Source: Tachypleus tridentatus
Taxonomy: Eukaryota > Arthropoda > Merostomata > Xiphosura > Limulidae
Assembly (NCBI RefSeq): GCF_004210375.1
Contig: NC_134834.1
Coordinates: 161,157,290 to 161,221,289, forward strand
Direction: 5' to 3'
Length of the DNA: 64,000 bases
In this document: positions 8,601-42,477 of the stretch, piece after piece
Layout of the letters: the number at the start of each line of letters is the position of its first letter
How positions within the stretch are numbered: position 1 is the stretch's first letter
Notes under the pieces: model-generated
Told to the model about the DNA's origin: nothing
The model's input: the letters and a program-made list of their open reading frames with translations, nothing else
The model's database searches: none
Program-made: the position numbers and the translations under genes

Positions 8601-8609
8601 TGGTGTGGA

Positions 8610-21705: not shown

Positions 21706-21711
21706 TTACAT

Positions 21712-21770: not shown

Positions 21771-22155
21771 GCCATTTTTTGATAAATCCTATAATATATC
21801 GTAACATTTCAAAACAAAATTCTGCTTTTCATCAGCGACCATGTAGGATATTTTCTCTTAAATACATTAAATTTTCTATCCTTTCGTAGTAGTATAACAA
21901 TAGGTGATCATTGCTTAAAATTCTTGTTGGTTTTCTATAGATAGAAATAACAGTTCTTGTTTTGCTTTAGCTGTAAACATGTCTAAATATAGCGACAAGG
22001 TACTGGTTCACTTTTAAAGTTAATATAATACTATGCTTTACTAATCTTTTGAAAAGACATAAAAATCATTTCTGAATTCAAGTTGAATAAAATACATGAA
22101 CGTGTCCAAACTTATTTCATATAAACATCTAGTTACATAGTAGAGACTTTAACTT
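21771..22155. other. Non-coding stretch, nothing recognised
   Basis: AT-rich, with no coding or repeat signal. Confidence 0.5.
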
Positions 22156-22352
22156 CAGCCCCTCACTCCCTGGTACAGCGGTAAGTCTACGGATTTACAA
22201 CGCTTAAATCAGGAGTTCAATTCCTCTCAGATGGCTTAATAGATATTTCGATGTGACTTTGTTGAAAGAAAACAGGTATCCCGATGTGGCTTTGTTTAAA
22301 CAAAACGGATATCCTGATGTGGCTTTGTTAAAACAAAACACACACACTTTAA
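22156..22352 (+). mobile_element. SINE, family 2, with a triplicated tail
   Basis: Head tacagcggtaagtctacgg, then ggagttcaattcctctc. The tail block gatatcccgatgtggctttg plus an A-rich segment occurs three times in tandem (about 22228, 22274 and 22309) before acacacac. Confidence 0.85.
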
Positions 22353-22976
22353 CTTCACATTATTACTCAGTCTTGACTTTATTGTAATTTGTTCTTTTTG
22401 TATTCTGCCTCCATTTTATCAGTTTCAAAAACTAATTATTTTCGTTCGTTACTTTTAAAAAAAAATATGTTTATAACTTCTTCTTGTAGCCGTGGCTACA
22501 CTAGGTGTGACAGTCATATACATCAACAGATCACTCAAGAGTAGCTAAAGAGTTGACGACGAGTTCTGTTAGCTTACTGCCTTTTTAATGTTCTTTAATG
22601 TTCTGAGCGAAATGAACTTTCTGAAAAGACAAGGGTTTTGTTTTTCATTGAGGTTCAACTTTATTTATAATTTATCAATAGTATATATGTATGTAAAACA
22701 TTTAACAGATTCTGATATGTTATTACACTTGTTTACTTCACATATTGTTCATGTTTTGTATTGTTTCTTGATGTACTTCCTCAAGTTATTATGAATGAAG
22801 TATTCTAAAAATAACACACATTTTGTATAGACACATGTACTTACCACATTTAACCATCAATGTGTTAGTTAATCCATTATGTATCAGTGTAATAGGGTTT
22901 GAGTAAAATGGTTGAAATACTTTTTAACTTACGGACGATCACAACATGTACGGTGTGAAGGTCTGTTAATTGTGTT
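22353..22976. other. Non-coding stretch, nothing recognised
   Basis: No supported exon or repeat. Confidence 0.5.
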
Positions 22977-23040
22977 AATATAGCCCTCGCAGATAGCCCT
23001 CGAGTAGCTTTGCGTGAAATTCAAAAACAACAAAAAAAAC
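22977..23040 (+). mobile_element. SINE tail fragment (family 1)
   Basis: agatagccctcgagtagctt, then tgcgtgaaattcaaaaacaa. The tatagccctcg element is doubled at its start. Confidence 0.7.
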
Positions 23041-23886
23041 AATTGAACCTAACATTACCTTCACCAGTCTTTAGAAGAATTTTATAACTTCTGAGTCATT
23101 ACACTTGAAAGCAAGTAGAAAAACTGTTGATCAAACAACAACTTGAAACATTGTTTACTCTAGAATTAAATCTGGTCTCATAACATTTTGAAAAGTCGAT
23201 AATGTTGTATAATTACTGTGAGATAGCAGATTGTAGTTTTATTTTGTGACGTTTCGGTTACCATTAAGTTTGTACATTTTCGATCGTTTAGTTAAACTAT
23301 GAATTTTTAATTATGTTAAAGTGCTAACTCACTTTCCAGATACAGCACGTTAATTTTGAGTTCTCATGTATTATGAAACCGAGACAAGTTTCCCCTAGCG
23401 GTGACGTACAGATATTAATGTTGTGAAAGATTATGTAGATTTATAGTAATAACTAGTCACATGAGATGCAATCTCGTGGTCTAATCAGTAGATAAAGATG
23501 GCTAAACGAGTTAGTTAAAAAGAATTATTGCTAAATATTGTTACTGACATAAGAAATGGTTCATTTTTGAAGCATTGTGTTATTCTCTGGTTCTTTCTTC
23601 TTTTGTTTGATATTTGTTGATATTCATCTAAGTGACATTTATTTTGTATTATTTATTAATATATATATACCTAGTCCTGGCCAGATACTGGCTTACTAAC
23701 TGTTGTTTTGCACACAATAAAACTCGGATGCTAGTTGTTTTGGTTATCTGTTGTTATTTTACACTTCTTGAGCGGCGTTTTGATTAATTACACTTTGAAT
23801 TGATTCTATGACTAAATTATTACGAGAAAGATGGGTTTCAACAGAAGATGGTAAATAATTAAACTCACAAACCCAATGAATAGAGA
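23041..23886. other. Non-coding stretch, nothing recognised
   Basis: No coherent coding or repeat signal. Confidence 0.5.
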
Positions 23887-24047
23887 GGAACTAAAGCACG
23901 TGACTGAGTCTACCAATGATAGGTAGGAACTAGAGCGCGTGACTGAGTCTACCAATGATAGGTAAGAACTAGAGCGCGTAACTGAGTCTACCAATGATAG
24001 GTAAGAACTAGAGCACGTGACTGAGTCTACCAATGATAGATAGGAAT
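23887..24047. repeat. 39-bp tandem repeat, four copies
   Basis: The unit carries gtgactgagtctaccaatga and is 39 bp long, i.e. 13 codons. The minus strand is therefore open with a repeated SYLSLVDSVT peptide (frame 23812-24141). There is no other sign that this is a gene. Confidence 0.9.
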
Positions 24048-24985
24048 CGCACAACAAAATGAAAGTGCTTAAAGCTAGCTCTTTACTGTCACACCTGGAC
24101 AACATAGACTTCACCTGACAGATCGATGAATGAATCAACATTTATAAAAGTAATCAATTTTTAAAAAAAAACACAACATTTTACTGTTTAAACTTGTGTT
24201 GAATCTATCGTTGTTTCACATGGCTTGACGTCATTGACGCGTAAACTGCTCTACAACCTTTAATAACGAGAAAATAGACGGTGAAACTTCCACATTCCAA
24301 ATCTTATTATGTCGTGACTGACTTTAACATCTTGTATGTGTGACTGAATATTTCTGTCCTTGGTAACCCTGCAGGTTCCACGTAAGTAAACTTTTTTTAC
24401 TCTTTTTACGAATTACTTAAATCTTATGTTATTACATGCTTATTAACACTTAATTTTTTTTATTTCATGCTTTTGGAATAACACTTGGCGGTAATTTAAA
24501 TATCAACACTTAACAATAAGTTTTTAATTGGGTTAAAGCAAATTAAGCGATGACGTCATTCGCTAAAATAAAGGTGCATATTAAAACGTAAATATTTTTA
24601 ATAAATATAAAGTTATTTTGTACTTTTGGTACAAAAGGTAACTTCGGTCATTAGGTTCATAAAACCAACATAACATGTAAACAATCAGACATGTGTCTAA
24701 GCTTCTGAGAAATGTACAGTCAAAGGGAATCTTTGTGGCTAACGTTTGTACTTGTGAAACAGAAAGCATGGAAGCTGTAAGTTTTGTATGTTTGTGCATA
24801 GCACGTGTAATTGTTTAAATGTCTGATAAAATTAACTTACTTTCCTTCCAACACTGATAGCATTAAAATATTAATATTCTTAGGTTTTCTTATTTGGATA
24901 AAAATACATATCTAACTGAACTTTTGTATTATGCATTTATTCAGATTTTTTTTTACTTTATGATATTCTGTATTCTAACACGATA
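24048..24985. other. Non-coding stretch, nothing recognised
   Basis: AT-rich. One isolated donor-like cacgtaagtaa near 24380 has no partner that I can find. Confidence 0.45.
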
Positions 24986-25260
24986 AGGCCCGGCATGGCC
25001 TAGCGGGTAAGGCGTGCGACTCGTAATCCGAGGGTCGCGGGTTCGTGCCCGCGTCGCACCAAACATGCTCGCCCTTTCAGCCGTGGGGGGGTGTATAATG
25101 TGATGGTCAATCTCACTATTCGTTGATAAAAGAGTAGCCCAAGAGTTAGTGGTGGGTGGTATGACTAGCTGCCTTCCTTGTAGTCTTACACAGCTAAATT
25201 AGGAACGGCTAGCACAGATAGCCCTGGAGTAGCTATGTGCGAAATTGAAAAACAAACAAC
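24986..25260 (+). mobile_element. tRNA-derived SINE (family 1), well preserved
   Basis: Full order: ggcccggcatggcctagcgg head, gtcgcgggttcgtgcccgc B box, a caatctcactattcgttg body, taaattaggaacggctagc, and the agctatgtgcgaaattg tail with aaacaaacaac. Confidence 0.95.
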
Positions 25261-25876
25261 AGTATGTAGTACCTGTGCTGCCTCTGCTGGTGGAATTTTG
25301 AAATATTCCTCGTATATCATAAAACATTTACTGTATTACAGCATTTTTGGGTGAATTAGAGGTAAATATAGTATGTAAAAGAGTTTCAGCTCGGTTTTCC
25401 TAAGGATACACCTTACTAGACTACATTACAATAATATAACTGGTTTTATTATTCGAAAGTAGTTTTCACAATTAAAACATAAAACTACACAATTTGGCTA
25501 GCAGCATTTATAGATTTTTAACATTACAAACAGTTTAACTTCAGTTAATCAACTTTTACATTATTATTACTTCGAAAATGTTAAATATATTCGGCGGAAA
25601 AATTCAGCTTGTAAGGATGTGCAGCCTATCAAACTAAATAGCTTAAACGAGGAGTAGCACTATTAACGTCTACAAGTTTATAAAACTGTTGTATATAATC
25701 CAGCATTTGTAATAACTCTTAGTGATAACGGTTTTCATAAGTTATAATTTTGTATTAAAATTTATTTGTCTTAAAAAAGAACATTGTTTCTTTCAAACTT
25801 TTTACAAAATATCATAAATTTAATACGTATAAACGTTAATGTTTTGGTGTTAACAGTTTAATACGTTTTAATAAAC
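25261..25876. other. Non-coding stretch, nothing recognised
   Basis: AT-rich, with no coding signal. Confidence 0.5.
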
Positions 25877-26165
25877 GTATTTATATATAATATTTTAAAC
25901 TTATATCCAATATGTTCACTACGTTATTTATTTATAATATTTTAAACTTACATCCAATGTATTCACTACGTTATTTATATACAATATTTTAAACTTACAT
26001 CCAATGTATTCACTACGTTATTTTTATACAATATTTTAAACTTACATCCAATGTATTCACCACGTTATTCATATATTATATTTTGGATTTACATCCAACA
26101 AGTTCACTAAGGCTATTTATATAAAATATTTTAGCCTTTCATCCAATGAGTTCACTAATGCTTTT
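25877..26165. repeat. ~48-bp AT-rich minisatellite, site 2
   Basis: Same unit and the same variant types (tattcatatat, gagttcactaatgct) as the array at 21090-21705, about 4.2 kb away. About six units. Confidence 0.9.
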
Positions 26166-26673
26166 AAAATTATATCCTATAAGAAAAATCAGGTTTGTTT
26201 CCGAACTTTTCCAATGATAAACGTATCTTGGCTGTCAGAATTTTCAATGAGAATAACAACCTTTTTTTTTCGATGTCCTTGTTTACTCTTTGGTTTAACG
26301 ATAATAAGTTCATCGTAATTGTTCACATTTCTAGGAAACAGAGGTCGCTGGATATATTCTTTAATAGCTTTTCCTTGTTTTGACGCTGGTGTTTCTGTCT
26401 GAAGATGTAGAATATAGTAATGTTTAGTGGTGCAACACTCAAAATTTGAGCAATAATTTTACTATAACATGCATAAAACCAAATAAATGTTTCTATAAAA
26501 ATTATAAATTATGAAATTGGTTTCAGTTATCTCATAAATGTTTTCTGGAAACTAGAAAAACTATTTCAAACATTGTTTCACGCAGTGAATAAATAATGAT
26601 ATACAGCAGACAATAGCTTAAATACTGTTTTCCATTTATATTTTACACGTTCACAAAGGATAACTAGATTGTT

Positions 26674-26945
26674 TATATTATTGTCTAGACAAGATGAAAG
26701 TACGGTTACAATTAAATATCAAGTGTTCCACTCAATTTATTGTTATATAACTAGACAAAATGAAAGTGCGGTTATAATTAAATGTCAAGTGTTCTACTCA
26801 ATTTATTGTTATATAACTAGACAAAATGAAAGTGCGGTTATAATTAAATGTCAAGTGTTCTAATCAATTTATTGTTATATAACTAGACAAGATGAAAGTA
26901 CGTTTATAATTAAATGTTAAGTGTTCTACTCAATTTGTTGTTATA
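26674..26945. repeat. 66-bp tandem repeat, four copies
   Basis: The landmark ctagacaa recurs near 26685, 26751, 26817 and 26883. The period of 66 bp is divisible by three, which keeps a trivial plus-strand frame open (26669-26863). Confidence 0.92.
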
Positions 26946-27854
26946 TAAATTAAACATCAAAAGTTATGTGATCTGAACTTCAAACGACTGGTTATTTACC
27001 TTATGTTACAGAGAGAAACAGTTTTCAAACTGTCTTATTTTTTTGCAACTTTGGAATAAATCACGCACCTTATAGCGTTTTAAAACAATCAATAATCTTA
27101 GTAAAGTCCAAAAGAAGAGAACTGGATATTTCACTAAATGTCTTTCAGACCAATGAAAGTTGGCTGACAGTCAAAAAAGAAAAAAAAACTGTTGTAAAAT
27201 GTCTGAAAGCGTCATCAACAAGATATAGTTGAACCACTTGCAACAAAATGGCACAAATACACTGGTACTTGGCTAAGAAGGTCCCAATCCACCTTTAAAG
27301 CAGGTTGCCGTTATATACCGATTATGTGTAACCTGATAATATCTGAATCAGATGTTCAAAGCTCCAACATGACGTCATTTCATTGTACATACAGTTAAAA
27401 AAACGAAATAAAGTGAGCAATATGAGCGGAAGTGATATATTATGGTGCCACTAGTGTATAAAATAATTCGCTTTTATTATCAGTAGTGATAGTATGTATG
27501 TGAATGAAAAATTACGAAAGGGCATTCTGATCTTTATGTTTTCCAGATGTTATTGATGCAATGGACATCAGTGAAGGTAATGCGAACTTCTTACACAATC
27601 ATATATTGTTACGATTGGCTCTGGCTTCAGTTTAATGGATGGTAATTGTCTTCCAACATGTACTAAGATTGAAGAAGAGGTGATTCATCAATTTAACTAG
27701 CATATAGACTTATTAGACCTCAATGGTATCGAACATGTACAAGTCTATTTTGGAGAAAAAAATTGCATGCAATCAAACGACTCTGAACATTAAAGATTCT
27801 CTGAACGCATCTTTTTTTTTAACTGTAAAAATGTGAATTTACTTGCATCAAATA
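26946..27854. other. Non-coding; 3' flank of the receptor gene
   Basis: Nothing coding is evident. On the minus strand this is where the 3' UTR and polyadenylation site of the receptor gene (stop at 27855) would lie. Confidence 0.5.
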
Positions 27855-28176
27855 TTAATTATTACGTAAGATGAATAAGAACTTAATTGAATTTCGAACC
27901 AAAGTATTCCTTTCTCCTAGGTCGTTTTCATATATCGTCTCCAGGGTTGTTCGTTTGGTCACTTTTTGCTTTCTTGGAATATTAGTTTTTGTCTTCTTAA
28001 CATTCTTTGCAGAGACCTTCTTCTCACATTCATGGATCAGTGGCATAGCCTCCAATATATCCAATTCATCAGTGGTTATCTTTTCATCACCAGGCTGTTT
28101 GTGTTCGACACGGTTTTTCAAAACATTCCGTTCTTCCCGAGGTTTATATTTCCAGGTGTAGAAAAAACAAAGTACG
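27855..28176 (-). CDS. Receptor gene exon 5: cytoplasmic tail and stop
   Basis: Acceptor tgatcatgcag at 28177-28187. Begins VLCFFYTWKYKPREER, completing the membrane helix, and runs 106 codons to TAA at 27855. Lysine-rich middle (KKTKTNIPRKQK), then TTLETIYENDLGERN. The LETIYE...ERN stretch reminded me of the Tantalus domain of PRR14-like proteins, but membrane topology makes a receptor tail the better explanation. Confidence 0.72.
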
Positions 28177-31100
28177 CTGCATGATCATTACAGAAAATAA
28201 ATAAATAAGAATCACGTGTTTCAAGTCCATTAAAATACATATTGTAATTAAATAAGCTATGGATAATGCGTCACAGTTAAAACTTGCAGTCGTAACTTAC
28301 CACAAAGCAGTAAGACACATCAAAATGAGTGCTGTTCGCCAAGCACATCTTGGAACTGTAAATTTTGAAGTCAAGTGAAGCGTAGCCTTCGAAACCACTT
28401 CAATTCGATCTTAAGACAGAGAGTCGTATTTAAAATCAGTTTACGTACTCCACCGGTCACGTAAAACAGAAAAATAAAACTTCAAATGTAAGTTAACAAT
28501 AATAGTAATGTGTATAATTCTTTAAGTTTTCATTAACATATTAAAATTGTAATTAAATAAATATGAAATTTCTTACATTTATAATATATTTTCATATTAA
28601 ACATTGATAACAACCTTTACAATTTGCCAACTGTATATATACATTTTTTCTTTACACGTTAAACAGATAATTAGCAAAGAAAAATGACGCCTGTTATATT
28701 ATTTGAGCTCCTTACTGGTAGACAAGTAGTACAGTTGTGTAATAACAACAACTATATAGTTATATAACATAAAATCAGCTAAGTTTTCCAACATATTTAC
28801 ATTAATAGAAATACAACAAGGAGCCTACTGACTTTCCATTCCAAACACACGTGATCAGACTATATAAGAAAAATCTCGCCATTTCTTTACGATAATTGAC
28901 ATATAATACAACTCAGTATAACACAGTGAGTTAAATCAACTTCGATTCACTTAACTTGTAAGGATATGTAACACAGTCTTTCCATTGACTACTTAATAAA
29001 GTCAGTTTGTTTAATGGGTATTCACTTACTGTGTTAAGTTTTATAATTAACAGCTTCACTTATTATGGTGCATAATTATATTTTACTATCGAATCGCATC
29101 CACTGAATGGTAGTTTCTGCGTCTTTACAAGACTATTAAAAACAGTAATTTTTACAAATTTCTCTTTACTCTAAATTTCCCAGATAAATAACGATACCAT
29201 TTTGACCACAAACACTGAACGTCGTACGTCACTGCTCATGAAGTTTTTCGGTTACTTGGTAACAATTCTTTCTAATAGTTTTATTGAGTACTCATGAGGC
29301 ACTGCTAACGTTTTGATAATCCAATGGTATTATAAACTTATATTAAAACATTTGTTTTGCATTTGGACAAATTACTGTATTTTATTACAAAAACGACATT
29401 ATGAACACAAAATAAACATATTAAACATAGGTTTAAGTTATGTTTTGGGACATATGCTGTTTTAGTTAAATATCTTTACTTCTTTTTAGTAATAATGTGA
29501 CGCATACAGATGTGCTATCGAGACACCGTAATATTTGTTTGTTTTTCAATTTCGCGGATAGCTGAACGAGGGCTTTCAGCGCTAGCCGTTCCTAATTTTG
29601 AAATGATATACTGGAGGTAAGACAGCTATTCAATACTATTTGTCGTAAATGTTTGAGCCCATCTTTAAAAACGAGTAGTAGGATTTCCCAGTAAAAGCAA
29701 AGCTTTTTAATGCATTAAAAACCATGAAAGTTATGAAGTATCGTATTATAACAATCTGCATGAACAAAAATAAACATCTTTAAAATGTTAAGGAAACAAT
29801 AAAAGAAAACTTTAAAACCCTTTTGTTCCATTACTTCTACAAAGATCTTTATTATCAGCTCCTTCTTCATCAGTAATTTCGTCTTCAGGACAAGCTATAC
29901 AGGCGTCAGCAGCAAAAGACGTCATGAAAGTCCCTCCTGGACACGGCAGGCAGTGAGTTTGGGATCCGTTATCATAGTGTCCAGGAGGACATGGATCTAA
30001 AAGCGTTAAAAGTACATAGCTAAACATTTATTTACCCAGTGTTAATTTTTATTGTTCTAACAACGTCTTTAGTGTCAAAAAACGTATTTGTTTAACTAAA
30101 ATTCCATATTTTTAAAAGTCTTTCATCTATTTGTGTTTAATGTGAACAGTTTAAAGTAATTGAGTGTCATGTATACTTACAACACCTGTCAGCATCTCTT
30201 CGGTATCCCCGAGTACAGTTGAGATTCTCGGCTGGAACATACACTGGGGAAAACAACAGAGAGTTAATATTTTTGTTAGCACGTTTTGTGTCACCGTTGG
30301 AATTTTAAGGTTTTTCACAATGAGCACGACGCACAAGTTATAATATTAATTATGACTCACTCTGTAAAATAACAACATAAATGTTACTTTTCGTGAGAAA
30401 AATAAAACGTGTCAAAACAGTTTCTTAACAGTAGACTTTTGTTTCTTTATGTACTTCCTAATGGAGTTAACTAATGAAACTAATCACACAAACTTGGAAG
30501 TTTATGAAATTACACACGATCTTTTTTTTATTGGTATATTTGATTGCTGTTGGCGTTTCCCTTGTAAAATTCTTATTTGTCACAGTTAAACGTTAAACTG
30601 TTGTCACTGTTTATGTTAATATCAGTATTGTAAATACAGGTTCTTTTGGGAATATTACGTTGGTAAAATGTATCAGTATATGATTGTGTCTTGCAAACAA
30701 CAAAATATCAAATAATATCCTTATAATGCAGAAGTTGGATGAAATGCATTCCGAGAAAATTTTTCATTTGAAGTTAATACAAAAGCAAATACTTAATTTT
30801 TTTGTGGATTTATCAAGATAAATAATATTGCGATCTAACACCTTTCACTGTAAATTTAAAGTATTGTTTATTCAAAATACGTTCTTAAAAAACTTCGTAG
30901 ATATAATTTGTGTCTTTACAGTTCACAAGATTTTGCTTCAACATTCACAAGTTGAGTTCATTATATCAAAATAACTTTGGAGCCTCATCACTTCTCTCTA
31001 CAGGTTTACCATAATCCATCTGGTCTCTGATCACATAGAAATCTATAATTACTACATCAGTGACGTGACTGGTAAGTGTGTGTGTGTACAATAACATGCA

Positions 31101-34100
31101 TATCTATCTAATTACTCAGCGGTTAGAAGACTGAGATATTTTTTACGTACTGTCGCCTGGGACACTTCAGCGTTTTTTATCCTGACATTTGTGTTCGTAC
31201 GACTTGTTGCACGTCTTTTTATGAATTGTTCATAAATTGTTTTGGCGAACCAAAATTATTTTTTCGATGCTTTTAAATACAATAAATATCTTTGTTTCGA
31301 AAAATTTAAATTCTCATTTGAATATATTTTCATGATTTGGGCATATAAAAATTTACATTGTAAAGGTCTGTTACACACCTTTCCCAAAAGTAACCAATTT
31401 TCGGTTACATCACACCATTTACGAAATGTTAAGCAATGTCATAAAGTTGTTCTGATAAATTCTGTTCTATCGTGACTTTATATCAGATTGAGTCACATTA
31501 TATGCCAGGTTGCATATTCAAAACTGTTTTGGCATGGCTTACTAATCCCTATAAACTATAAAGTATTATTGCTGTGAACATTAGTGGCAGACTCTGACTA
31601 ATACTGCATGTTTATTTCAGGAGTACCGATAAGATTACGGGTTCGTCTTTATCACTGCCCTGAAATAGCTCTTTTCAGGGCATCTTTAACATCAACTGAT
31701 GGAATGTGATGCATCTTTCATAAGTATATTATAGCTGTCAATATCAACATCTTCAAATAATCTGCCGACCCACTTAGCACCTTGGAGTTGGGCAATATCA
31801 CCCTTACTGGAGTCCTGATTAGATGGATCAGTATATGGACGAACAAAGAGTGTAGTATTGATGGTAACATTTAAAGTAATTATATGTGGATATGTTTACC
31901 AATACTTATTCATACCACACTTCAACATCGACATTTCCTCTCATTAAAATTAAGAAAAACTGATTTCATGTTATCTCTAAAGTAATAATTCCTTGTAAGT
32001 ACTTTTAACAATGTTGTAATAATCTGTTTTATGCATTTATATTTCTGAGGAACCCACTTGAAGCTAATAAATATTGCAGACATTCTACAATGGGTAATTT
32101 AAAACTTTTTTATTAGATAATTCATATATAATTCGATGTTTCTAGGTTATAAAGCGATTAGGAAGGAGATTTGAGATAACGGTGACACAGAGAAACCTCA
32201 GTCAGCAACACGATACTCACCCAGCCAATAACCCTAAATACAATAAGCAAAATACCTTGATACTTATTAAGAAAAGAAAGGAAATACAATACTAATGTCA
32301 TTTATAAAATATTTTATGGCAACTTCCACGTATTTTACGTCGGAGAAACAGGCCAAAAACACAAAACAACTTTCATGTAACACAAAAAATTGAATCTCAC
32401 GTTTTTTTAATTTAACACTGCAACTCAAATAAATATACTATAGGTAACATTTAAATTCCAAACAGAGAATCCAACATCATTAGACGATAAACCAAATAAT
32501 TCCTTGTAATACAAGAGCAAACACACGTTAAACCAACATAAAGAAACACTTTTATATCTATATTAATAAACTTCAATAAATCTTGTTCGATGTATTATAA
32601 TTTGAAGATGATACTTTTAATTTACAATATTTTATAATTTACAAAATATTCTGAGAGTACTAAGAGTAATGCAGATAGTATTAATAGGAAATTACACGAA
32701 GGTTGTTAAAAACTATCATATGAAAATAAGACAGTTCAATTTTCATTACAATTAAATGATATAAAAGATAACGTATCGTTTTATGAACGAAATCGATAAA
32801 AACACAGTTTAATTAACGTAGATGAGAGTATTTTAAAATTCCTATCTGGTGCAGTAACAACAGTTTGATCAGCAGAGACAAATCCATAAAGAAATTATTT
32901 ACTCTTTAGGTGAACAAACGAATAATATGAATTATTTGACTCAACCAACTGAAAACCATGATTGGAAAAGTATTCAGATCATTGGTAAGTATCACTAATA
33001 TACCAATACATATCAGAAAAAAACAAAATGAAATATATAAAACAAGAGCTGAGTTGTTAGTTTTCAATGACAAAATTCAGAATAACTGACAGTAGTTCGC
33101 TTTTACAGTGGAAAACAGTAGATCGGAGTTAGCTCAGTTAGTACAAGCACTGAATGTGACCGCAAATAGAAAGTTAAGTTCTTGCTTTCTACTCCGAGTA
33201 AGCTATCAAATCTATTAAACAAAAGCGAAAGATCACCTCACACTTGCAGTTTGTGGTCCCTACACATAGTTATCAGATTTTCATTTATTACATGTGAACT
33301 GACACTAATACAGCTACAATTAGAGATACCTTGAAAATGTTTAGACAAGTTACATAGAAATGTACTTATTGTAGCTGTATTAATATCATAATATCAGTCC
33401 ACGTGTAATACATGAAAATCTGACAACTATATATAGGGACCACAAACTGTAAGTATGAGGTAATCTTTCACTTTTTGTCTTGATAGCTAACTTGGAGTAG
33501 AAAACAATAACTTTACTTTCTAATTAACTGTAGAGAATGAAAAGCTTTTCGAATGATCAAGCACACATAGTTTTTCTTATAACAAAACCACATCAGGCTA
33601 TTTACTGTGTCCACCGAGGGCAATCGAACTCCTGATCTTAGCGTTGTAAATCCATAGACTTACCGCTGTTCCATCGGGAGACTATTTCATTAAAACAATA
33701 ACTCCATGAACATAGTTATATAATGTTAAGTGTTAACTGATTTTATCTGTTGTCAGTCCAAAACTGGTTGCTTATCAGTTCGATTATAAGACTATAATCG
33801 TAACGTTTTTTAATTAATGATTAAATGGTACAATAGATTATATTACACATTTTAAAGCTGTGAGTTTTTGTTTCTATTTTTCTCTGTAAATATGCACTCT
33901 ACTTAAACTAAAGACATACTTATACGACTTGGATTTAAATCTATTCATAAAGAATATGAAAAAACAACGTATTTGCGAGTCACTTGAAAATATTGAACTG
34001 CAAGAAAAAGAGAATCAATTTAAAATAAAACACCAGTTTTAATAAATGAAGTTCAATTAAAATTCCTTTTAACCAAAGAAATTATTCAGTCACATTTATT

Positions 34101-36138
34101 CCAGTTTAAACATTAAATCATCGTGTAATATCATTGCTTCGCCAACTTAAACATTTTCTACCCATCCTGTACATATTTTACAACGCATAAAGAAAAAATA
34201 TTTTGATCGCTATAAATGAGACCTACTAACGGGTTCTAGCATTAAAGTAATCATCTAAAACGAGATTTTCGCACACCACTGACTTAAAATCAGTAATGAG
34301 CATATTGAGAAAAATGAGGCAGAAATATTTGCGAGCAAATGTGGCATTAAACATAATTATTAGGATTCACTAACATCTGCACTCTCCATCAAAACGTTTT
34401 ACTATTAAAGAAACATCCGTTCACGGTAAGAACGAAAATATTTAATTTGTATACGTAAAAATAAATGTAGAGCTAAGTTGTTTATGTTTGTGTCTTTTTT
34501 TCCTTTAGTAGGGCCAGCATACTCGTCTTTTCAACCGTGGGGGCGTTATGTGACGGTCAATCCCACTATTCGTTGGTAGCCCAAGAGTTGGCGGTGGGTG
34601 GTGATGACTAGCTGCCTTCCCTCTAGTCTTACACTGCTAAATTAGGGACGGTTAGCACAGATAGCCCTCGAGTAGCTTTGTGCGAATTTCAAAAAAACAA
34701 ACTTCTTTTAGCAAAGCCACGTCGGGCTATCTGCTGAGCTCACCGAAGGAATTCGAACCTGTGATTTTAGCGTTGTAAATCCGTAGACTCTGTACTAGTG
34801 GGGGGCAGAGCTTAGCTAGCAAAAAAAGAAAGAGAATAGAACGGCGGTGGTATTAACAGTTTGAAACTACTGTAGACAAACTTTAAATAGATTGAAAGTG
34901 TAGTGATCAGTAGGATATCTTTACAGTTACAAAATTTTAACCAAATCTTTGAATTCCTAAGGTTGATTTGTCAGAGAGTATCTTGTTTACTTTTAGCTTC
35001 GTTAACTACCAAGCTCTGTGAGAGAAAAATCAGGAATTCCATAGCTCTAACCAATGAATACAAATAAATATCACAAACATATAGTAAGATTGATAAAATA
35101 TTGGTTATCGAATTTTTAATGACAATTAAACTAATTTCAAATGCTTTACAAACGATAATTAATGACAGAATTAATTTTCTTTTTTCTTCGCATGAACATT
35201 CCGCTTGGTTGTTTACAAATAAGTAACACATAATATGAAATTTTTATTGTGAAATAATTAAGTTAAAAGTGATACTATTGTCATCATAATCTTATGTATA
35301 CATGGGCAATATAAATAATTTTGTAGTCAATACACGTGTAGAAACGGGCATATTTACATAATGTCTGAATAAAACAACATATGAATCAAGATTTACATGT
35401 ATTTATACTAAAGTTATACAAAGATGTTTAGAAGTACTTTTTCGAGATTTGCGACTGAAATATATAAATCCCTTTCAAGTATCAGCCCCCAAATATATTC
35501 CCCCCATCATGTTTTCGTTGTACACGCTCCCAAGTCACAAAAGCAAAGTTTGAAGACAATAGGCCTTTACCATTTACTTTAGGCATAAGCAATTAGGAAA
35601 TAACATTTTGTCCCCAAGAACAAGAAAAAGTAAAAATTTTGTTACATAGTGTAATCTTACATATACACAGGCAATTATTTTTATAATCAATACACATGGT
35701 GAAATATCAAACGAAAAGGTTATGGCTGAAAGAAATTTAAAAGCAAGATGGACGATTCAGATTTAGATGTTATTTCTGTTAAATTACTATCGTTTAATAA
35801 ATAAAAATATGGTCTACAAAAAAAACTTTGAATTTACCTCTGACATCATGTTTGTAATCACCTTCACGATTTTTGCATGTGTAAATTCCCGCGTCTTCAA
35901 ATTCCACGTCGGTTAGCACTAATTTGCCACCGTATTTTATTTGCGTTCTCTCATTATTAATAACTAGTTCATTGCGATTTGAGTACCAAATAACTATTTC
36001 TTTTCTCCCTCTTTTATAAGCTTGGTTTGAACATATTAATGTAAGAGTAGAACCACGTTCAGTTTCGTAGACGAATTTAAAACCTGAAACAAGCAGGAAA
36101 CTACCGAAAATATAAAATAATTGAGTGTAATTAGCCAT
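27855..36138 (-). CDS. Single-pass receptor-like protein: signal peptide, Ig, GCC2/GCC3 cysteine module, TM, tail (5 exons)
   Basis: Exons 36138-35838, 30243-30181, 29996-29835, 28355-28301 and 28176-27855. All four introns have GT-AG borders and phases that fit, giving 903 nt (300 residues plus stop). Residues 1-19 look like a signal peptide. Residues 20-105 are an Ig domain (Cys in LTLIC, Trp in IVIWY, DAGIYTC). Residues 108-175 carry eight cysteines in the CPPGxY / CxPCPGGTF pattern of GCC2/GCC3 (ephrin-receptor-like) repeats. About residues 183-201 are a hydrophobic helix followed by basic WKYKPR, so the tail is cytoplasmic. The tail has EAMPLI (acidic dileucine sorting consensus, 236-241) and YEND (pYxN, Grb2-SH2-type consensus, 276-279). 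Likely a cell-surface receptor or adhesion protein; ligand unknown. An acceptor-like site at about 36084 leaves open that exon 1 starts there and the real signal exon lies further upstream. I know no named orthologue. Confidence 0.75.
28301..28355 (-). CDS. Receptor gene exon 4: transmembrane helix
   Basis: 55 bp between aaaatttacag and GTG|GTAAGTTACG. Encodes PRCAWRTALILMCLTAL. The phases (2 bases in, 2 bases out) fit exons 3 and 5 exactly. Confidence 0.75.
28356..29533. other. Intron 3 of the receptor gene
   Basis: AT-rich intron sequence between exons 3 and 4, without other recognisable content until the SINE fragment at 29534. Confidence 0.6.
29534..29630 (-). mobile_element. SINE fragment (family 1) in intron 3
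   Basis: Tail and part of the body on the minus strand: tttgtttgtttttcaatttc, then agcgctagccgttcctaatt. The head is missing. Confidence 0.75.
29835..29996 (-). CDS. Receptor gene exon 3: GCC2/GCC3 module
   Basis: Acceptor acgcttttag; donor AGAA|GTAATG. Encodes PCPPGHYDNG, HCLPCPGGTF, CIACPEDEITDEEG and DLCR. If the donor were not used, the frame would stop at 29812 (a secreted form). The phase match to exon 4 favours splicing. Confidence 0.82.
30181..30243 (-). CDS. Receptor gene exon 2 (63 bp)
   Basis: Acceptor ttttccccag, donor GTT|GTAAGTATAC. Encodes VYVPAENLNC and TRGYRRDADRC, the start of the cysteine module. It begins and ends in phase 1, so it connects exon 1 to exon 3. Confidence 0.8.
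31240..32580 (-). repeat. Unclassified ~1.4-kb segment, copy B (inverted partner of 7160-8600), in intron 1
   Basis: The minus strand of this copy corresponds to the plus strand of copy A over the whole 1.4 kb. The best coding trace is on the minus strand at about 31883-31695, including TTLFVRPYTDP and GAKWVGRLFEDVDID. Conserved NRPLQCK and LYAQI traces lie at about 31385-31335. The protein family is not recognised. It is broken, and old enough for about one third of positions to differ from copy A. It sits within the 5.6-kb first intron of the receptor gene. Confidence 0.7.
33123..33197 (+). other. Degenerate tRNA-like sequence
   Basis: A 7-bp acceptor-like pairing (tcggagt with actccga), an A-box-like tagctcagttagtacaagc and a weak B box make this look tRNA-derived. 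The anticodon arm does not fold well, so it is a SINE head or tRNA pseudogene rather than a working tRNA. It overlaps the left arm of the fold-back at 33166-33525. Confidence 0.4.
33166..33525. repeat. Fold-back (inverted repeat) element, ~360 bp
   Basis: Two arms of about 155 bp (33166-33320 and 33368-33525) are imperfect reverse complements around a 47-bp spacer. Matching landmarks are tttgtggtccctacacatag on the left with the complement of tatatagggaccacaaact on the right, and cagctacaat with attgtagctg. Confidence 0.85.
33574..33690 (-). mobile_element. SINE, family 2
   Basis: Minus strand: ttataacaaaaccacatcag tail, gcaatcgaactcctg, agcgttgtaaatccatagac and cttaccgctgttccatcggg head. 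A clear family-2 copy. Confidence 0.85.
33691..34508. other. Intronic non-coding sequence
   Basis: Within intron 1 of the receptor gene. No other signal seen. Confidence 0.5.
34509..34705 (+). mobile_element. SINE (family 1) lacking most of the tRNA head
   Basis: gggccagcat is joined directly to actcgtcttttcaaccgtgg, so the A/B-box part is deleted. The body and the tail (agccctcgagtagctttgtg) are intact. It meets a family-2 SINE tail-to-tail at 34706. Confidence 0.88.
34706..34806 (-). mobile_element. SINE, family 2, tail-to-tail with the SINE before it
   Basis: Minus strand: agcaaagccacgtcgggcta, then attcgaacctgtgattttag and cgttgtaaatccgtagact. Joined to the family-1 SINE through a shared A-rich stretch. 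Confidence 0.85.
34807..35837. other. Intronic non-coding sequence
   Basis: AT-rich sequence in intron 1, just downstream of the Ig exon. Nothing else recognised. Confidence 0.5.
35838..36138 (-). CDS. Receptor gene exon 1: signal peptide and Ig domain
   Basis: ATG at 36138. Ends at AGAG|GTAAAT (phase 1). The G-strand of the Ig fold is completed only by exon 2 (…KHDVR + VYVP), which supports direct splicing across a 5.6-kb intron. An alternative acceptor, ctgcttgtttcag, lies inside this exon before residue 19. Confidence 0.75.
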
Positions 36139-36754
36139 TGAAATCTCTCTGCACTGTACGCTTTGTAAGTCACTTTCTGTATTGTTTCTAAGTGAAATAT
36201 CAGTGTTACTATGCTTACAAAGTATTCTTGTTTGAATGACGTCATGAACTCAAGTAATATCGTTTGGTGGAAAAATTTTACTAACAATTATGATTGCTGA
36301 TTGCAAAGTTTACTGTTTTCTGTTATTGGTTGAACTGAGATATTATAATCATGTTTATGTTATGCAGTACCAACTCAAGTAATTTAGATTTAACAAACAA
36401 TAACAACACTTTCCTGAGATTTCAACTTGAAATTTAGTTAAAGCAAATAAAATTTATACGAAGTTTTGCTTTGCAATTTCTTTTGACAATACAAGTCTTG
36501 TCGGTATTTATGATTTCAACCACAATAAGACTGCTAACAGATGTCTCATGATACATATAAATTATAATTGAGTAGTTATAAATGTATAAACATTGTAACC
36601 ATATTTAAATTTTAAAAAATCAGTTAAAGAATATTCACATATATAACTTATGTGACAAATACTGCATTCCATGGTGCTATATAGGGATTAATAACTACAA
36701 TTAGCTATATCAAATATTCTGTTATTAAAACTAATAAGATTTCAATAGTTTGTT
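36139..36754. other. 5' flank of the receptor gene
   Basis: Presumed 5' UTR/promoter or upstream intron of the minus-strand receptor gene. No TATA box in a convincing position could be chosen from the AT-rich background. Confidence 0.4.
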
Positions 36755-37021
36755 TTGGTTTTTGAATTTCGCACAAAGCTAGTGCGATATTTGTGCTAGT
36801 CGTCTCTAATTTAGCAGTGTAAGATTAGAGGGAAGGCAGCTTGTCGTCACCACCCACCGCCAACCCTTGGGCTACTCTTTTACCAACAAATAGTGGATTG
36901 ACCGTCACATTATAACGCCCCCACGGCTGGGAGGGCGAGCATGTCTGGTGCGACTGGGATTCAAACCAGCGACCCTCGGGTTACGAGTCGAACGCCTTAA
37001 CACACTTGGCCATGCCGGGCA
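36755..37021 (-). mobile_element. tRNA-derived SINE (family 1), full length
   Basis: Complete on the minus strand, from the ttgaatttcgcacaaagct tail to the cttggccatgccgggc head, including gattcaaaccagcgaccct over the B box. Confidence 0.93.
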
Positions 37022-37199
37022 AGATTTCAATTGATCTTTCGTCCTAAAACGGTAATATGTTCATTACCCTGTTCATGGTTGCCAGGCAAAATACTATCAT
37101 AGTTTTGTTGTGCTGTAACAATAAAGTTAATACCCTGGATCAAATAGGCCTAAGATTTATAATAAATATTATGTAAATTGCAAATGCTACTTTCCCCCT

Positions 37200-37437
37200 T
37201 AGGCCCAGCATGGCCAGGTGGTTAAAATACTTGACTCATCATACGAAAGTCGCGGGTTCAAATCCCCGTTATAATGTGACAGTCGATCCTACTATTCATT
37301 GGTGAAAGAGTAACCCGAAAGTTGGCGGTAAGTGGTGATGAATAGCTGCCAGCCCTTTAGTTTTACATTGCTAAATTAGGGACGGATATCACAGATAGTT
37401 CTCGTGTAGCTTTACGCGAGATTCAAAAACAAACAAA
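37200..37437 (+). mobile_element. tRNA-derived SINE (family 1) with internal deletion
   Basis: aggcccagcatggccaggtgg head and gtcgcgggttcaaatccccg B box, then a direct jump to ttataatgtgacagtcgatc. Body and aaacaaacaaac tail follow. It lies 180 bp from the minus-strand SINE at 36755, forming an inverted pair. Confidence 0.9.
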
Positions 37438-38024
37438 CCTATCTCTTTTTTGACGTTAAAATATACTTACTTCTAGATTTTTAAGTTGTTCAATTCTCAG
37501 TTAAACTGAAGAATAGCATGCAAAATTAACGTGTAAATCAATTACAAGGTAGTACATGAATGAAATTCTTTGCTAAATATAATTTTTGTTACTGTGACAC
37601 TTCGATTTTTGAAACGTAGATTTATATTTCTATAAATGTTCAATTTCATAAATATCTTGTGACATATTTCTCTTCGTCTTTGAAGTGTGTTCTTGGATAT
37701 TAATGGAGGTCCACAGTGCAGCTTAACAGTATGGGATTCACTATAGTGGGACTTCACGTATAAGTCTTTGGGCCCTTTTTATTATGGTTGACATTTTAAT
37801 AAATATTTCTAAAAAAGATGTCTACAAATTTGTGTCATTCGCTTATTCTAGATCTTTCTGGAAGCCTATACAATGCGCATGCACATTTATATGCTGTACA
37901 GTATAAATCTGAGCATCACTTGCTGTCAGCGACAGTTCAGTTTTTTCATGTTAAGGGGGGGGTATATACTTTTTACAGAGATCCTTTTATTATGCGTGAG
38001 AAAAAGAATGTGTGATGATACCGA

Positions 38025-39170
38025 GCCAAAGAAAACACTCTGGTATGCATAATATTCGTATTGCAAGCGAAAGTTCAAGTGTAGACAAAGATGCTGCTGA
38101 AAAATTTCCTAATGAATTTATAGAAATTATTAAAAAAGTACGGTACAAAGATAACCAAATATTAATGTTGATGAAACGGGTTTATTTTGGGAAAAATATG
38201 CCTTCTAGAACTTTCCTATCAGAAAATGAAAAAAAACTCGGCCACGTTAGAAGCGCTAAAAGATCGTTTGACACTTGTTAGGAAGAGATGGATCTGGCGA
38301 CTTTAAATTAAAATCTATGCTTGTGTATCGTGCAGAGACCTCCCGAACATTTATCAGCTGTGCAAAGAAGACTCTCCCAGTTGGTTGGCGAACAAATAAA
38401 AAAAAATGGGTCACGAAACCTTTGTTTCAAGACTGGTTAAAAAGTTATTTTTGTCCTGCAGTTGAACATTACTGCAAAAGAAAACAACCTGGACTTTAAA
38501 GCCATCCAACGGGACTTTGTGACTTTAATGAAAATGTCAAAATTCATCTTCTTCCACCCAATACATCTCTACTGCAATTAATGAATCACAGTGTCATTGT
38601 GACGTTTAAAGCTTATTATTTGAAGCGAACTTTTTCTCAAGCAATAAAGACTACAACTACAGAAGCTGCACTATCTTCGACTAAATTCTGGAAAAATTAC
38701 ATCATCAGAAGTGCAATCGAGAGTATCAACGATTCGAGAGTAACATGAGAGCAATATGGAAGCACGTTCTGCCTAATTGTGCAAGCGATTCCTGCGGCTT
38801 TAAGTCCTAAATTAGGGATATTTCTGAAGACGTCGTCAAAATTGGACACAGTCTTGGATTTGAGTCTTTGGAAGTGGCTAATATTCGAGAGTGTACTTAC
38901 ACACATTCTCAAGCTCTCGATAATGATACGGTCCTTAATTTATACCAAGATCGGGCACATCAGGAAGAAAAAAAGTCCAGAGTGTAACGAAGGTGCCAGT
39001 GAAGAGCGGGAAAAATAATTTCCCTTACATAAACTTCACAAAATGTTTATAGCAATGGAAACTGCTTCAGACTTAATTATGAATCATGATCCAGACATAG
39101 AGCACTGCATTAATGCCAGACGAGCGTTAAGTGCTTTTTATGTAAAGATAGTTGACATGGTTTTATAAAG
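38025..39170 (+). pseudogene. Decayed Tigger/pogo transposase (TIGD1-like)
   Basis: The successive fragments read as a jerky/Tigger-type DDE transposase: NIRIASESSSVDKDAAEKFP, MPSRTFLSENEKK, SGDFKLKSMLVY, WVTKPLFQDWLKSYF and LLPPNTSLLQLMN (catalytic-domain block), then VTFKAYYLKRTFSQAIK and a C-terminal tail to about 39167. Such enzymes move elements by cut-and-paste into TA. Reading frames are interrupted several times and the DETGLF-type motif is worn, so it is inactive. No clear terminal repeats were found. It ends about 240 bp upstream of the anoctamin start codon and may lie in its promoter region. Confidence 0.88.
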
Positions 39171-39406
39171 TTAAAAGCAAATCATTGTTGCAATCTGTGA
39201 TCGTACATGTTGATATTGATTCAATAGCTGGATAATATTTGTCATCTACAGTGCTAGTTTTGTGTCTTTAAAACATCTAATAATTCTCAAATAACTATGT
39301 AATTTGGTTGAATAATATATGATTATATTTAGCAAGTGTAGTGTGTTTTCAAGTTTCTGTAAATGTCACATTTGGTTATCTAGATTAGCTGTTCAATATT
39401 AAGAAA

Positions 39407-39455
39407 ATGAGTGGGGAAGAGCCTGATGTGGAAACAGGCCAAAGAATTTTAGCAG
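39407..39455 (+). CDS. Anoctamin exon 1
   Basis: MSGEEPDVETGQRILA, ending GCAG|GTAAGTACC (phase 1). The donor is a near-perfect consensus. Confidence 0.82.
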
Positions 39456-41711
39456 GTAAGTACCGAATAAGAATATAAATACTTCAGGACAAATATTGAA
39501 AAAGAAACATGTTTTTCATGTTGTAATGGTATAAGTTTTTCTTGTCGTTTTATGTATGTATTTAATAATTTTGATTTAATATCATCATTTAAACTGTTTC
39601 TAAAGAAAAATGTGCTTTTGCCTGTTCCACAAAATGTTTTGTATGTGTATAAAATATGCTTAATGTTCTTAATTTATTCTTTGAATTATTTAGCAGAGGC
39701 ATTTAAAATAATAAATGTGAAACAAGATCTCTCATTTCATTTATCACTTGTTGAAATATTATACCAGTTTTAGGAATTTCACCCCTCAATTTGCCCCTGT
39801 CGAGGCTAAATCATGAGTGGTGAAATTCTCTGAAACTGGTATAACTCAAGTGACGAATGGTAAATCAAATCTTTGAAGAGACACTGTAGTTAAATGACAT
39901 TTATAATTGTTTTGAGACTGAATGTTTTTTAAAATATCTAAAAAGATTTACAGCTAACAGGAGATTGTATTCAACAAACAGTTAATTTAGAGCCAATTTT
40001 ATGATTGATTGGTCACTAATTATAGTTTGTCATTATCTCATTGAAAACGTCACCTGGCAGATATAAAAGACTGGTTAGTGTAGGTAGTGTTTGTTTATTT
40101 ATTTTAAGGATTAACATTTGAAAAGTAAGAAAAATTTGGACATAAGAAAACCAGATTTTCCGTACAATTTACTTTTTAATTTCAACAGTGAACAACATTA
40201 AAAATTACCATTTCTGTGTATTCTTTCATTGTTTTAATTATTATTATTTCTGTTAGATTCAGAGTCTGAGTCGAGCACTAATGAAAGTGCTAAAGATATC
40301 AGATCAATATCAAGTGAAATTGATATTCAGATTGAGGAATCCACAGAGGTATTATTACATTGTTCAATAGTTAAAAAGAGTTTATGATTCTGTTTATTAT
40401 TTATTACACGATGCATGTTTATTAGCACTTCTCCTGTTTTATCATTACAAAATAGTTACGTTGCTAACTTTTTTTACTTAAAAACATCAACAGATATTCA
40501 AATTTCTTGTATTTTAAAGTTCTAATGGTGTATGTAAAAAAATCAAATCTTACAAACAGTTTTTAATGTACAACTGTCATGTGAATTAAGTAGTTCAATA
40601 ATTGAGGTATTGAATGGTGGAATAAATGTGTCTTATATACACCTTAAGTTGGCTTGATTCTTTTCAGCATTTTATATACATATATATATATATATAGAAC
40701 ACTAGTTTCATTTTGATATGATTATATTTTGTATATTTATTAATAATATAAATATTTACTGTGCCCCTTTGTGTATATAACATGTCTTGTTTTTTATCAA
40801 GGGAATTAATATGACAGGTTTAATGTACATGATATAATTTTTTTATACCAATCACTGAAATTAAATGCTTTTTTTTCAAAATCATTAACTATTCTGTAAT
40901 ATTTAAAGAAAATTTTCTTTCAGAATTATTTTCTTGAGGGGAAGAATTGTAATTGATGAATTCTGTGGAGCAGAACATTCATGTGCTAAAGACACACTAT
41001 GTCTATAAACATTGTCTAGTTTTATATCTAAAGATCTTTTGTACAAGTATGTTTAAAATGGCCCTGTTTTAAGGGCCCCTTACTTTTTATTACAAAAGTT
41101 ATCATTTAGAAATAAAACCCTTAAATTTGGAAATAATTTTTTCTTGGGTGAGGTTACTTTAGGGGAAGTTTCCCCATGTTCTGTGGTAAGAATACTTATT
41201 CATTTATGCAACTTGTGAGCTTTACATGTACAGAAATTACAAGCTGCCACTAGGATATTTCAGTAAATGTGTTCATATACTCTTTAGAAGCCTATTAATA
41301 TTTTTTTTATAAATACAGATTCACTTTTGATAGATGAAAAAAAGATCAAGTGTATATGTATATATTGAACTATTTTTGTTATGAACAAGAAACAGAACAT
41401 TTAGACAAACCAATAATACAATTCCAAAATTTTGTAATTCTAACTAGGTTTTTATTTCATCTAAACAAAACATTTAGACAAACCAATAATGATTTTTGTT
41501 TAGATGAAATAAAAAACTAGTTAGAATTACAAAATTTTGGAATTGTATTAACTAGGAACCTTCTTTGTTTGACGATGGATACCGTCGAACTGACTTTGTG
41601 TTAGTTTACAAGCCATCATCAGAGAAAGACAGCGGTCCTCATGAAAACATTAGACAACTTTTTGAGGCAAATCTGGAAGATGAAGGGTTGGAACTGGAAC
41701 ATGTTCATCAA
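39407..41711 (+). CDS. Anoctamin (TMEM16) family gene, first three coding exons
   Basis: Anoctamins are ten-helix membrane proteins acting as calcium-activated chloride channels and/or lipid scramblases. Exons 39407-39455, 40257-40348 and 41556-41711 join in phase to 99 residues: an acidic, serine-rich N-terminus, then FDDGYRRTDFVLVY at residues 52-65 and IRQLFEANLEDEGLELEHVHQ near the end. These are the hallmark of the cytosolic anoctamin dimerisation domain. The ATG is fixed by an in-frame TAG at 39386. Later exons (the TM helices) were not found; either intron 3 is very long or they lie outside. The paralogue (for example ANO3/4-like versus others) cannot be decided from this part. A hairpin adjoins exon 3. 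Confidence 0.88.
40257..40348 (+). CDS. Anoctamin exon 2
   Basis: Acceptor tatttctgttag, donor ACAGAG|GTATTA. Encodes an acidic serine-rich stretch (DSESESSTNESAKDIRS) typical of the variable anoctamin N-terminus. Phase fits exons 1 and 3. Confidence 0.82.
40349..41414. other. Anoctamin intron 2
   Basis: AT-rich intron with a short (TA)n at about 40679-40695. No other feature until the hairpin at 41415. Confidence 0.7.
41415..41549. repeat. Hairpin-forming inverted repeat, 56-bp arms, 23-bp loop
   Basis: The left arm 41415-41470 (aatacaattccaaaattttg ... ctaaacaaaa) and right arm 41494-41549 are reverse complements with one mismatch. Overlapping this, acatttagacaaaccaataa occurs as a direct repeat near 41397 and 41471. 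The right arm ends six bases before the AG of exon 3. Confidence 0.95.
41556..41711 (+). CDS. Anoctamin exon 3: dimerisation-domain motif
   Basis: Acceptor attaactag, donor CATCAA|GTAAAT. 52 codons including the family signature DGYRRTDFVLVY. The acceptor has no pyrimidine tract because the right arm of a 56-bp hairpin occupies that place. Confidence 0.9.
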
Positions 41712-42477
41712 GTAAATGTTGTTTTTTTATTATATATCTGTTATTTCATGATGAATTGTTAACAGATGGTTCAGGTGTTTGTTTTACATAAGAAAATAAT
41801 GTATGAAACATAAAATTGTAAGAAATTAAAATTTAACTAAACTAACATTTTGTGTTTGGTTACAAGATTTCATGTAGTTAAAGTGATAAATGCAAGTCTT
41901 CAAAGTTTTTGCTTATTTGCAAAGCTGTTGTTTTGCTGTATCTTTCATTATTGTGTTTTTAATGTGTCTTTCTTCAGACTTGTTTTTATTTATATTACAA
42001 AAATATTCCTGTTCTGTAGCTGTTAACTCTGAATAGTTTATTATATATTTAACAAACAACTTGTACTAAGGAAATTTATTAGGGAAAGGTATTTATTTCA
42101 AGCATTAAGTAATATGAAATGTTTAAAGCTAGTGGTATAATTATTAGTATAACATTTATTTTTATTAATTACTTGAGGTAAAAGATAGCTTTGTGCATAG
42201 ATCAACAAATTATGTAACTAACTTGATACACTGGTCTATCTAATGGTATACTGTATCACAGAAATAATTACAATAATTATATGAAGAGTTGGGTAACCTG
42301 TTTTTATTAATAATTTTACTTATAATCCTAGTAATATTTTATGAGGTTTATTAGGCTTAGAAGTTGTATATACTCTGTTTGATGTGGAAATGAATTTTTA
42401 CCCCAAAATGGGTTTTAACTTAATAATATTTGACAAAAGTATATTAAGGAAATTGCATATCGCTCATTCTTGCTTTT
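41712..42477. other. Anoctamin intron 3, start
   Basis: AT-rich non-coding sequence, with no further exon recognised. Confidence 0.6.

Follow-up and report, generated by a model that had tools for sequence, protein, structure and literature searches.

The 64,000-nucleotide stretch of Tachypleus tridentatus DNA analysed here (the window, from contig NC_134834.1, labelled C10; C-numbers denote contigs) carries on its minus strand a gene for a predicted single-pass receptor, which combines an immunoglobulin (Ig) domain, a cysteine-rich GCC2/GCC3 (GCC) module, a transmembrane helix and a short cytoplasmic tail. The initial annotation, made from the letters alone, had presented it as a single compact gene. 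We found instead that it is one copy of a dispersed family that occupies well over a hundred places in the genome, some of them open and others broken, and that includes a second Ig subfamily. The annotation was right on the architecture but missed the main point, namely how large and how widely spread the family is. We lean towards reading it as a family of type I recognition receptors that expanded in this lineage and includes many pseudogenes, with one open copy in the window. Lectins and clotting factors are what horseshoe crab blood cells, a classic model of innate immunity, are known for. A membrane Ig family this large, if true, would be a directly testable candidate for a system of variable recognition in the absence of antibodies, and it would also be a natural experiment on how large, intron-containing duplicons spread through a genome.

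The gene model in the window

Five minus-strand exons lying between window positions 36138 and 27855 (Table 1) are spliced into a 903-nt coding sequence of 300 residues with one terminal stop, and all four introns have GT-AG borders. The splice model bears out, position by position, the exons that the annotation had proposed. On the spliced protein, Pfam PF07699, Ephrin_rec_like (GCC2/GCC3), scored 44.5 bits against a cut-off of 23.1 over residues 127-174, Ig_3 scored 31.5 bits against 30, and the ig family 25.5 against 21.8. Within the Ig domain, Cys36 and Trp51 are invariant and Cys88 is nearly invariant over 37 aligned rows, which places the domain in the immunoglobulin superfamily. Hydropathy peaks at residues 5-23, resembling a signal peptide, and at residues 183-201, resembling a transmembrane segment, so that the order of Ig domain, GCC module, single membrane segment and short tail read in the annotation holds. 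The stretch from the Ig domain to the membrane helix contains nine cysteines, and the protein has three N-glycosylation sequons, one of them within the signal peptide. Neither a kinase, nor a fibronectin III (FNIII), nor an ephrin-binding domain was among the 12 Pfam families matched at E up to 1. Sequence matches in the PDB were weak (EphA2 included; best E 0.012), and AlphaFold models of the Ig exon were poor, with a mean predicted local distance difference test score of 49 from the 37-row alignment and 53 from a 29-row alignment.

In silico skipping of exon 1 or exon 4 broke the frame, and skipping of exon 5 removed the tail and the stop; the frame stayed open upon skipping of exon 2 or exon 3.

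Table 1. Exons of the receptor gene and neighbouring shared features, in window coordinates
Feature	Position	Strand	Content	Evidence
Exon 1	35838..36138	-	301 nt; start codon, signal peptide (about residues 1-19), whole Ig domain (Cys36, Trp51, Cys88)	Splice model; Pfam Ig_3 at residues 26-89
Exon 2	30181..30243	-	63 nt; linker and start of cysteine-rich stalk, residues 101-121	Kept in 6/6 A-type copies and in 2/2 B-type genes read there
Exon 3	29835..29996	-	162 nt; Ephrin_rec_like / GCC2-GCC3 module, residues 127-174	Pfam 44.5 bits; match at C10:161187128-161187271
Exon 4	28301..28355	-	55 nt; juxtamembrane cysteine and first part of transmembrane helix	Acceptor AG at 10/11 and donor GT at 11/11 distinct places
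Exon 5	27855..28176	-	322 nt; remaining transmembrane helix, cytoplasmic tail of about 100 residues with EAMPLI and YEND, stop codon	EAMPLI-coding DNA at 142 genome places
Shared DNA carrying the gene	460..50162		Pieces at 0.46-9.96 kb and 25.5-50 kb; inversions and local insertions	Match to the C19 and C9 copies and partly to the C5 copy
LINE reverse-transcriptase fragment	9229..9927	-	Inside the shared DNA	Pfam match

Copies of the gene across the genome

The genome searched comprises 2.17 Gb in 205 contigs. The Coagulin family matched it 19 times and did not match any of 14 control genomes; coagulogen is a protein known from horseshoe crabs. Searches with the Ig exon, the tail exon and PF07699 returned 353 first-look candidates, 333 candidates and 421 candidates, respectively. 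The best 150 of each were scored; all 150 matched for the Ig exon and for the tail exon, and all 150 were above the cut-off for PF07699, some of these coming from other genes. Our tables hold 149 of the Ig-exon rows (omitting the second piece of one broken C1 exon), 141 of the tail-exon rows (omitting nine second pieces of the same exons), 126 of the PF07699 rows (omitting 24 stronger rows, mostly dense GCC arrays elsewhere) and 57 of 150 rows from a search with a type B query (omitting one short row at 60%, the remainder being mostly type A). The listed Ig exons amount to 116 of type A, at least 70% identical to the query, and 57 of type B, at least 61% identical to the B query; they lie on 14 numbered contigs, and 95 of the A exons and 46 of the B exons are without a stop.

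Pattern searches of the whole genome found the EAMPLI-coding DNA at 142 places with 2 mismatches allowed. With 3 mismatches allowed, the pattern for the 3' end of the A-type Ig exon occurred at 107 places, that for the corresponding B-type end at 26 and one taken from the GCC exon at 37. The reversed patterns, used as controls over the whole genome, gave no match for any of the four. Searching viral_contigs with the Ig alignment yielded no confirmed relative.

Five further copies, two on C19 and one each on C9, C5 and C4, contain all five exons in order, and the splice dinucleotides are kept at all sites in these and in the window copy (6/6). That the same exon order and splice dinucleotides recur at five other places in the genome shows that the five-exon model goes beyond chance. 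Exon 4, the piece whose use the annotation had named as a possible point of failure, stands, with its acceptor kept at 10 and its donor at all of 11 distinct places. The frame is open in three of the six copies: those of the window, C19:10.07 Mb and C5:59.1 Mb.

The annotation had also joined the Ig exon and the cysteine-rich exons in one gene, and the genome-wide arrangement agrees with this. A tail exon lies downstream on the same strand, within 14 kb, of 66 of the 173 listed Ig exons, with a GCC match between the two in 39 cases; the order is wrong for three Ig exons, and for one the tail exon is on the opposite strand. This predominance of the correct order suggests joint inheritance. Neither exon contains a stop in 43 of the 66 listed pairs. 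For the other 107 listed Ig exons there is no listed tail exon within 14 kb, which may reflect either an incomplete listing, decay or longer introns.

The distribution is uneven: C19, with 69.8 Mb and 3.2% of the bases, carries 59 of the 173 listed Ig exons. The idea that this contig is a general sink for repeats fits poorly, as it holds 11 of the best 150 LINE (long interspersed nuclear element) reverse-transcriptase matches (out of 12,969 candidates), some of which lie beside exons of the family. Stronger GCC matches are grouped at C6:1.9 Mb, C6:101.8 Mb, C7:62.6 Mb, C10:73.85 Mb and C2:107.2 Mb; by location they fall outside the Ig-GCC family and are probably large multi-GCC genes.

Two Ig subfamilies on a similar stalk and tail

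A second Ig subfamily, B, is set on GCC and tail exons similar to those of the window subfamily, A. The B Ig exon is 74% identical in nucleotides to the Ig exon of the window, and B Ig exons share 46-53% of its residues; the B sequence is above the Pfam ig cut-off and just under that of Ig_3. In two B genes, exons 2 and 3 with short flanks are 85-89% identical to the window in nucleotides and the tail is 91-92% identical, and a third B tail, on C13, reaches 93%.

Rates of nonsynonymous (dN) and synonymous (dS) change point the same way. Six B Ig exons that bear a start codon gave a dN of 0.32-0.35 and a dS of 0.33-0.39 against the window, and the B gene at C6:130.95 Mb gave a dN of 0.07 and a dS of 0.30 in exon 3, and 0.05 and 0.48 in exon 2 (20 codons only). 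When the nonsynonymous and synonymous counts of the six B Ig exons were compared with those of the GCC exons of C6:130.95 Mb, the Fisher p was 0.001-0.002, with the Ig and GCC exons coming from different B genes. The same contrast within a single B gene, at C6:125.3 Mb, gave p 0.005-0.018, although the dN of this gene may be raised by decay because its ATG, one Ig cysteine and the tail frame are lost. Judged from these coding comparisons, the stalk appears to be more constrained than the Ig tip between A and B. The dS of the B tails against the window is 0.07-0.12, and that of exons 1-3 is 0.30-0.61; the tail was probably homogenised later by gene conversion.

Selection and variation within the family

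Exons have fewer mismatches to the window than introns in all five copies compared (1.6-3.9% vs 3.4-5.4%), the gap being minimal in the C9 copy (3.11% vs 3.37%). Indels relative to the window amount to 0-4.4 per kb in exons and 3.8-7.2 per kb in introns. A maximum-likelihood codon model gave an omega of 0.68 for the A-type Ig exon (p=0.05; 25 unique rows), 0.76 for A and B together (p=0.04), 0.55 for the tails (p=0.04; 10 unique rows of 14 intact and 17 read) and 0.68 for exon 3 (p=0.25; 7 rows). The codon work was done without two Ig exons (C4 and L076), and the loci L046 and L084 gave no exon. Constraint on the family is modest (omega 0.55-0.76).

Within A, protein change peaks at residues 37-64 and reaches its minimum at 84-99, with variation clustered at 39-64 and 77-79. 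The 47-nt pattern at the 3' end of the A-type Ig exon is exact in 75 of its 107 places, and synonymous change is also low there (pS 0.046), which could come from gene conversion as well as from constraint. For residues 37-64 of B omega was 0.53, and for the mature A-type Ig exon outside these residues it was 0.52. A and B disagree on where change is tolerated.

Motifs of the cytoplasmic tail

The tail of the window protein encodes both EAMPLI and YEND, as the annotation had stated. We read 17 tail rows, three of which duplicate the same places, leaving 14 distinct tail places; EAMPLI or EAVPLI together with YEND is encoded at all 14, and in frame within the exon at 12. In shuffled tails used as a control, the dileucine motif occurred in 18%, YxN in 24% and both in 4.6%. 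The acidic dileucine [DE]xxxL[LI] is a motif bound by AP-2. An endocytosis signal and a Grb2-type docking site (pYxN) are hypothetical readings of this tail, and the motifs alone are weak evidence for them, because both arise together by chance at the frequency just given. Their conservation is likewise weak evidence of function, because the tails themselves are close relatives (omega 0.55, p = 0.04). Motifs of the immunoreceptor tyrosine-based inhibitory or activation type (ITIM/ITAM) have the form [IVLS]xYxxL. The YEND tyrosine, in TIYENDL, matches at neither position -2 nor +3, and we rejected membership of the tail in this class.

Probable duplicated blocks around the gene

The copies were compared with the window over 40-kb stretches. 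Upstream of the gene, the window matches the C19 and C9 copies to the limit of the compared stretches (window 47-51 kb), with the match still running. The upstream match ends at -0.9 kb in the C5 copy and at -2.4 kb in the C4 copy. The shared pieces are 0.6-17 kb long and about 94-98% identical, and their downstream limit lies at window 25481; the C9 copy and the copy labelled C19b share further DNA on that side, up to about +22 kb relative to the ATG. The pieces at 0.46-9.96 kb lie downstream of the gene in the window, but in the C19:9.67 Mb and C5 copies they adjoin exon 1 on its upstream side; because they switch sides in this way, inversions must have occurred. These comparisons fit a duplication of the gene in large blocks, with rearrangements and shifting ends. 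Local clusters of family members on C5, C6, C9 and C10 fit segmental duplication.

In the stretch C19:9655000-9694999 (L025-L028), the gene block is inverted relative to its flanks in comparison with the window. This stretch holds 1000 N, and the arrangement is either an inversion or an assembly fault.

The LINE reverse-transcriptase fragment inside the shared DNA follows the family: of its 19 best matches in the genome, counting the one in the window, 16 are situated no more than 30 kb from a family exon, and none of the next 11 examined is. For comparison, the regions within 40 kb of such an exon make up 0.8% of the genome.

Explanations for the family

On the lineage-expanded receptor reading, each gene would encode a signal peptide, one Ig domain, one GCC stalk module, one transmembrane helix and a tail of about 100 residues. 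The Ig domain would be the ligand-contacting tip, free to diversify, and the stalk, membrane segment and tail would form a conserved common chassis, with the tail probably driving internalisation or adaptor docking. Together, the copies may serve as a repertoire for immune recognition or self-recognition.

Several results weigh against this reading. Many of the listed Ig- and tail-exon matches contain stops, and the frame is broken by indels in the C19:9.67 Mb, C9 and C4 copies, that is, in three of the six spliced copies. The B gene at C6:125.3 Mb has no ATG, has Arg in place of Cys88 and a frameshifted tail, and is likely to be a pseudogene. Of the 141 listed tail exons, 77 lack an A or B Ig exon in the 14 kb upstream and are either orphan fragments or partners of further Ig types. 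Codon models of Ig A, Ig B, tails and exon 3 detected no positive selection. Omega for Ig B was 0.75 (p=0.19; 15 rows); for residues 37-64 of A it was 0.93, not different from 1 (p=0.81), and for the mature B exon outside these residues 0.95. Within B the pattern of variation differs from that of A, and residues 37-64 are not the most variable part. The Ig rows were partly picked as intact-looking or recognisable, so that omega is biased and apparent decay lowered. Finally, the low dS of the tails relative to exons 1-3 indicates that gene conversion may mix the histories of the exons.

One rival possibility is that the family is a passenger amplification, in which one or a few functional founders sit in readily duplicating DNA and most copies are decaying without any repertoire function. 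The three broken copies out of six, the omega of 0.55-0.76 with values near 1 in several partitions, the tens of kilobases shared by several copies (mostly non-coding flanks with the LINE fragment) and the concentration of 59 of 173 listed Ig exons on one 70-Mb chromosome are all consistent with it. Pulling the other way are the 43 of 66 listed Ig-tail pairs without a stop in either exon, the divergence of exons below that of introns and the constraint on the GCC exons between A and B, which is much weaker on the Ig exon. We regard passenger amplification as quite possible, if somewhat doubtful.

Another account makes the receptor gene the cargo of a giant mobile element inserted throughout the genome, as might be suggested by Ig exons on 14 numbered contigs with introns retained and, in several copies, long shared flanks. 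The breakpoints, however, vary by copy, with no common ends within the 40-kb stretches compared, and the local clusters on C5, C6, C9 and C10 speak for segmental duplication. Moreover, when 10 of the 29 window open reading frames of at least 100 residues were scanned with Pfam, only two matched (E up to 0.01), one to a LINE reverse transcriptase and the other to the zinc finger of a hAT-like element; we consider the giant element improbable. That the Ig exon and the cysteine, transmembrane and tail exons belong to separate transcripts and were assembled in the splice model by chance is very improbable, for although the 77 tail exons and 107 Ig exons without a recognised partner within 14 kb would allow it, all six copies agree in exon order, strand, splice sites and phases, the 66 listed Ig-tail pairs stand against three in the wrong order and one on the opposite strand, and exon 1 would supply a signal peptide without an anchor and exons 4-5 an anchor without a signal peptide.

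The lineage-expanded receptor reading can be carried further. More than 100 chromosome-dispersed Ig-GCC receptors, with one chassis, diverging Ig tips, tails kept alike by gene conversion, a concentration on one chromosome and spread by large duplicons, might form an invertebrate counterpart of the variable Ig-receptor complexes of vertebrates; we put this forward as a speculative and rather unlikely extension.

Relation to known receptor families

The closest parallel in chelicerates is sDscam, which in the available parts of its descriptions (PMC4835542, PMC5775551) is likewise a chelicerate-expanded group of single-pass Ig receptors with a variable N-terminal Ig part and a common remainder. 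Unlike the present family, however, sDscam has several Ig and FNIII domains and varies by 5' cassettes within one gene, whereas here one Ig domain is joined to one GCC module and variation lies between dispersed whole copies. With one Ig stretch and no FNIII match in Pfam, we rejected membership in sDscam/Dscam.

Eph receptors and other Ephrin_rec_like proteins share the stalk module, which matches the Pfam family that bears their name, but the ephrin-binding, fibronectin and kinase domains that an Eph receptor tyrosine kinase requires were not among the 12 Pfam families matched by the window protein, and this membership was rejected as well. So was Sp38/ZPBP, for which Pfam Sp38 scored 15.4 bits with the window protein and 21.0 with the B sequence, against a cut-off of 23.1.

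Families of the vertebrate NITR, CHIR and LILR type mix open copies with pseudogenes. As far as the partial accounts at hand describe them, they resemble the present family, by analogy and not by homology, in being multicopy type I receptors with Ig domains; they differ from it in that the family here has no ITIM in the tail (by inspection), has a GCC stalk and has copies on many chromosomes. Other immune genes that form tandem families in horseshoe crabs, Carcinolectin-5b among them, share the lineage-specific expansion, as covered in part of PMC7210998, but they are lectins or other genes in local tandem arrays and not a membrane receptor on many chromosomes; that part does not name the Ig-GCC family.

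No Ig-GCC receptor family in horseshoe crabs appeared in the open-access literature, as judged by titles and the openings of abstracts, and the words "immunoglobulin" and "ephrin" do not occur in the main text, in the partial form available, of three papers on horseshoe crab genomes (PMC7210998, PMC7011531, PMC7815833). One of these, in the portion available, counted 117 Dscams (Ig proteins) and 42 FREPs in T. tridentatus (PMC7011531), and some Ig-GCC genes could be hidden within published counts of the Dscam/FREP type. A different combination, with a GCC2_GCC3 region beside leucine-rich repeats, is found in an Aplysia kinase receptor according to the accessible part of PMC4200351.

Other repeats in the window

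Window positions 3624-6671 and 14394-17441 hold an inverted pair of a hAT-like element of 3,056 bp, the two copies being 99.1% identical, with one open reading frame that matches the Spin-doc zinc finger (zf-C2H2_12). In the C19:9.67 Mb, C9 and C5 copies the first of them (3624-6671) is missing, and the sequences on either side meet in an 8-bp overlap, presumably as from a hAT target-site duplication. A 47-bp minisatellite occupies about 0.3 kb at 25878-26157, and between the same flanks the C19b, C9 and C5 copies have about 4.7-5.7 kb of DNA. At 18894-20911 lies a 20-bp tandem repeat of 101 copies with 90% matches.

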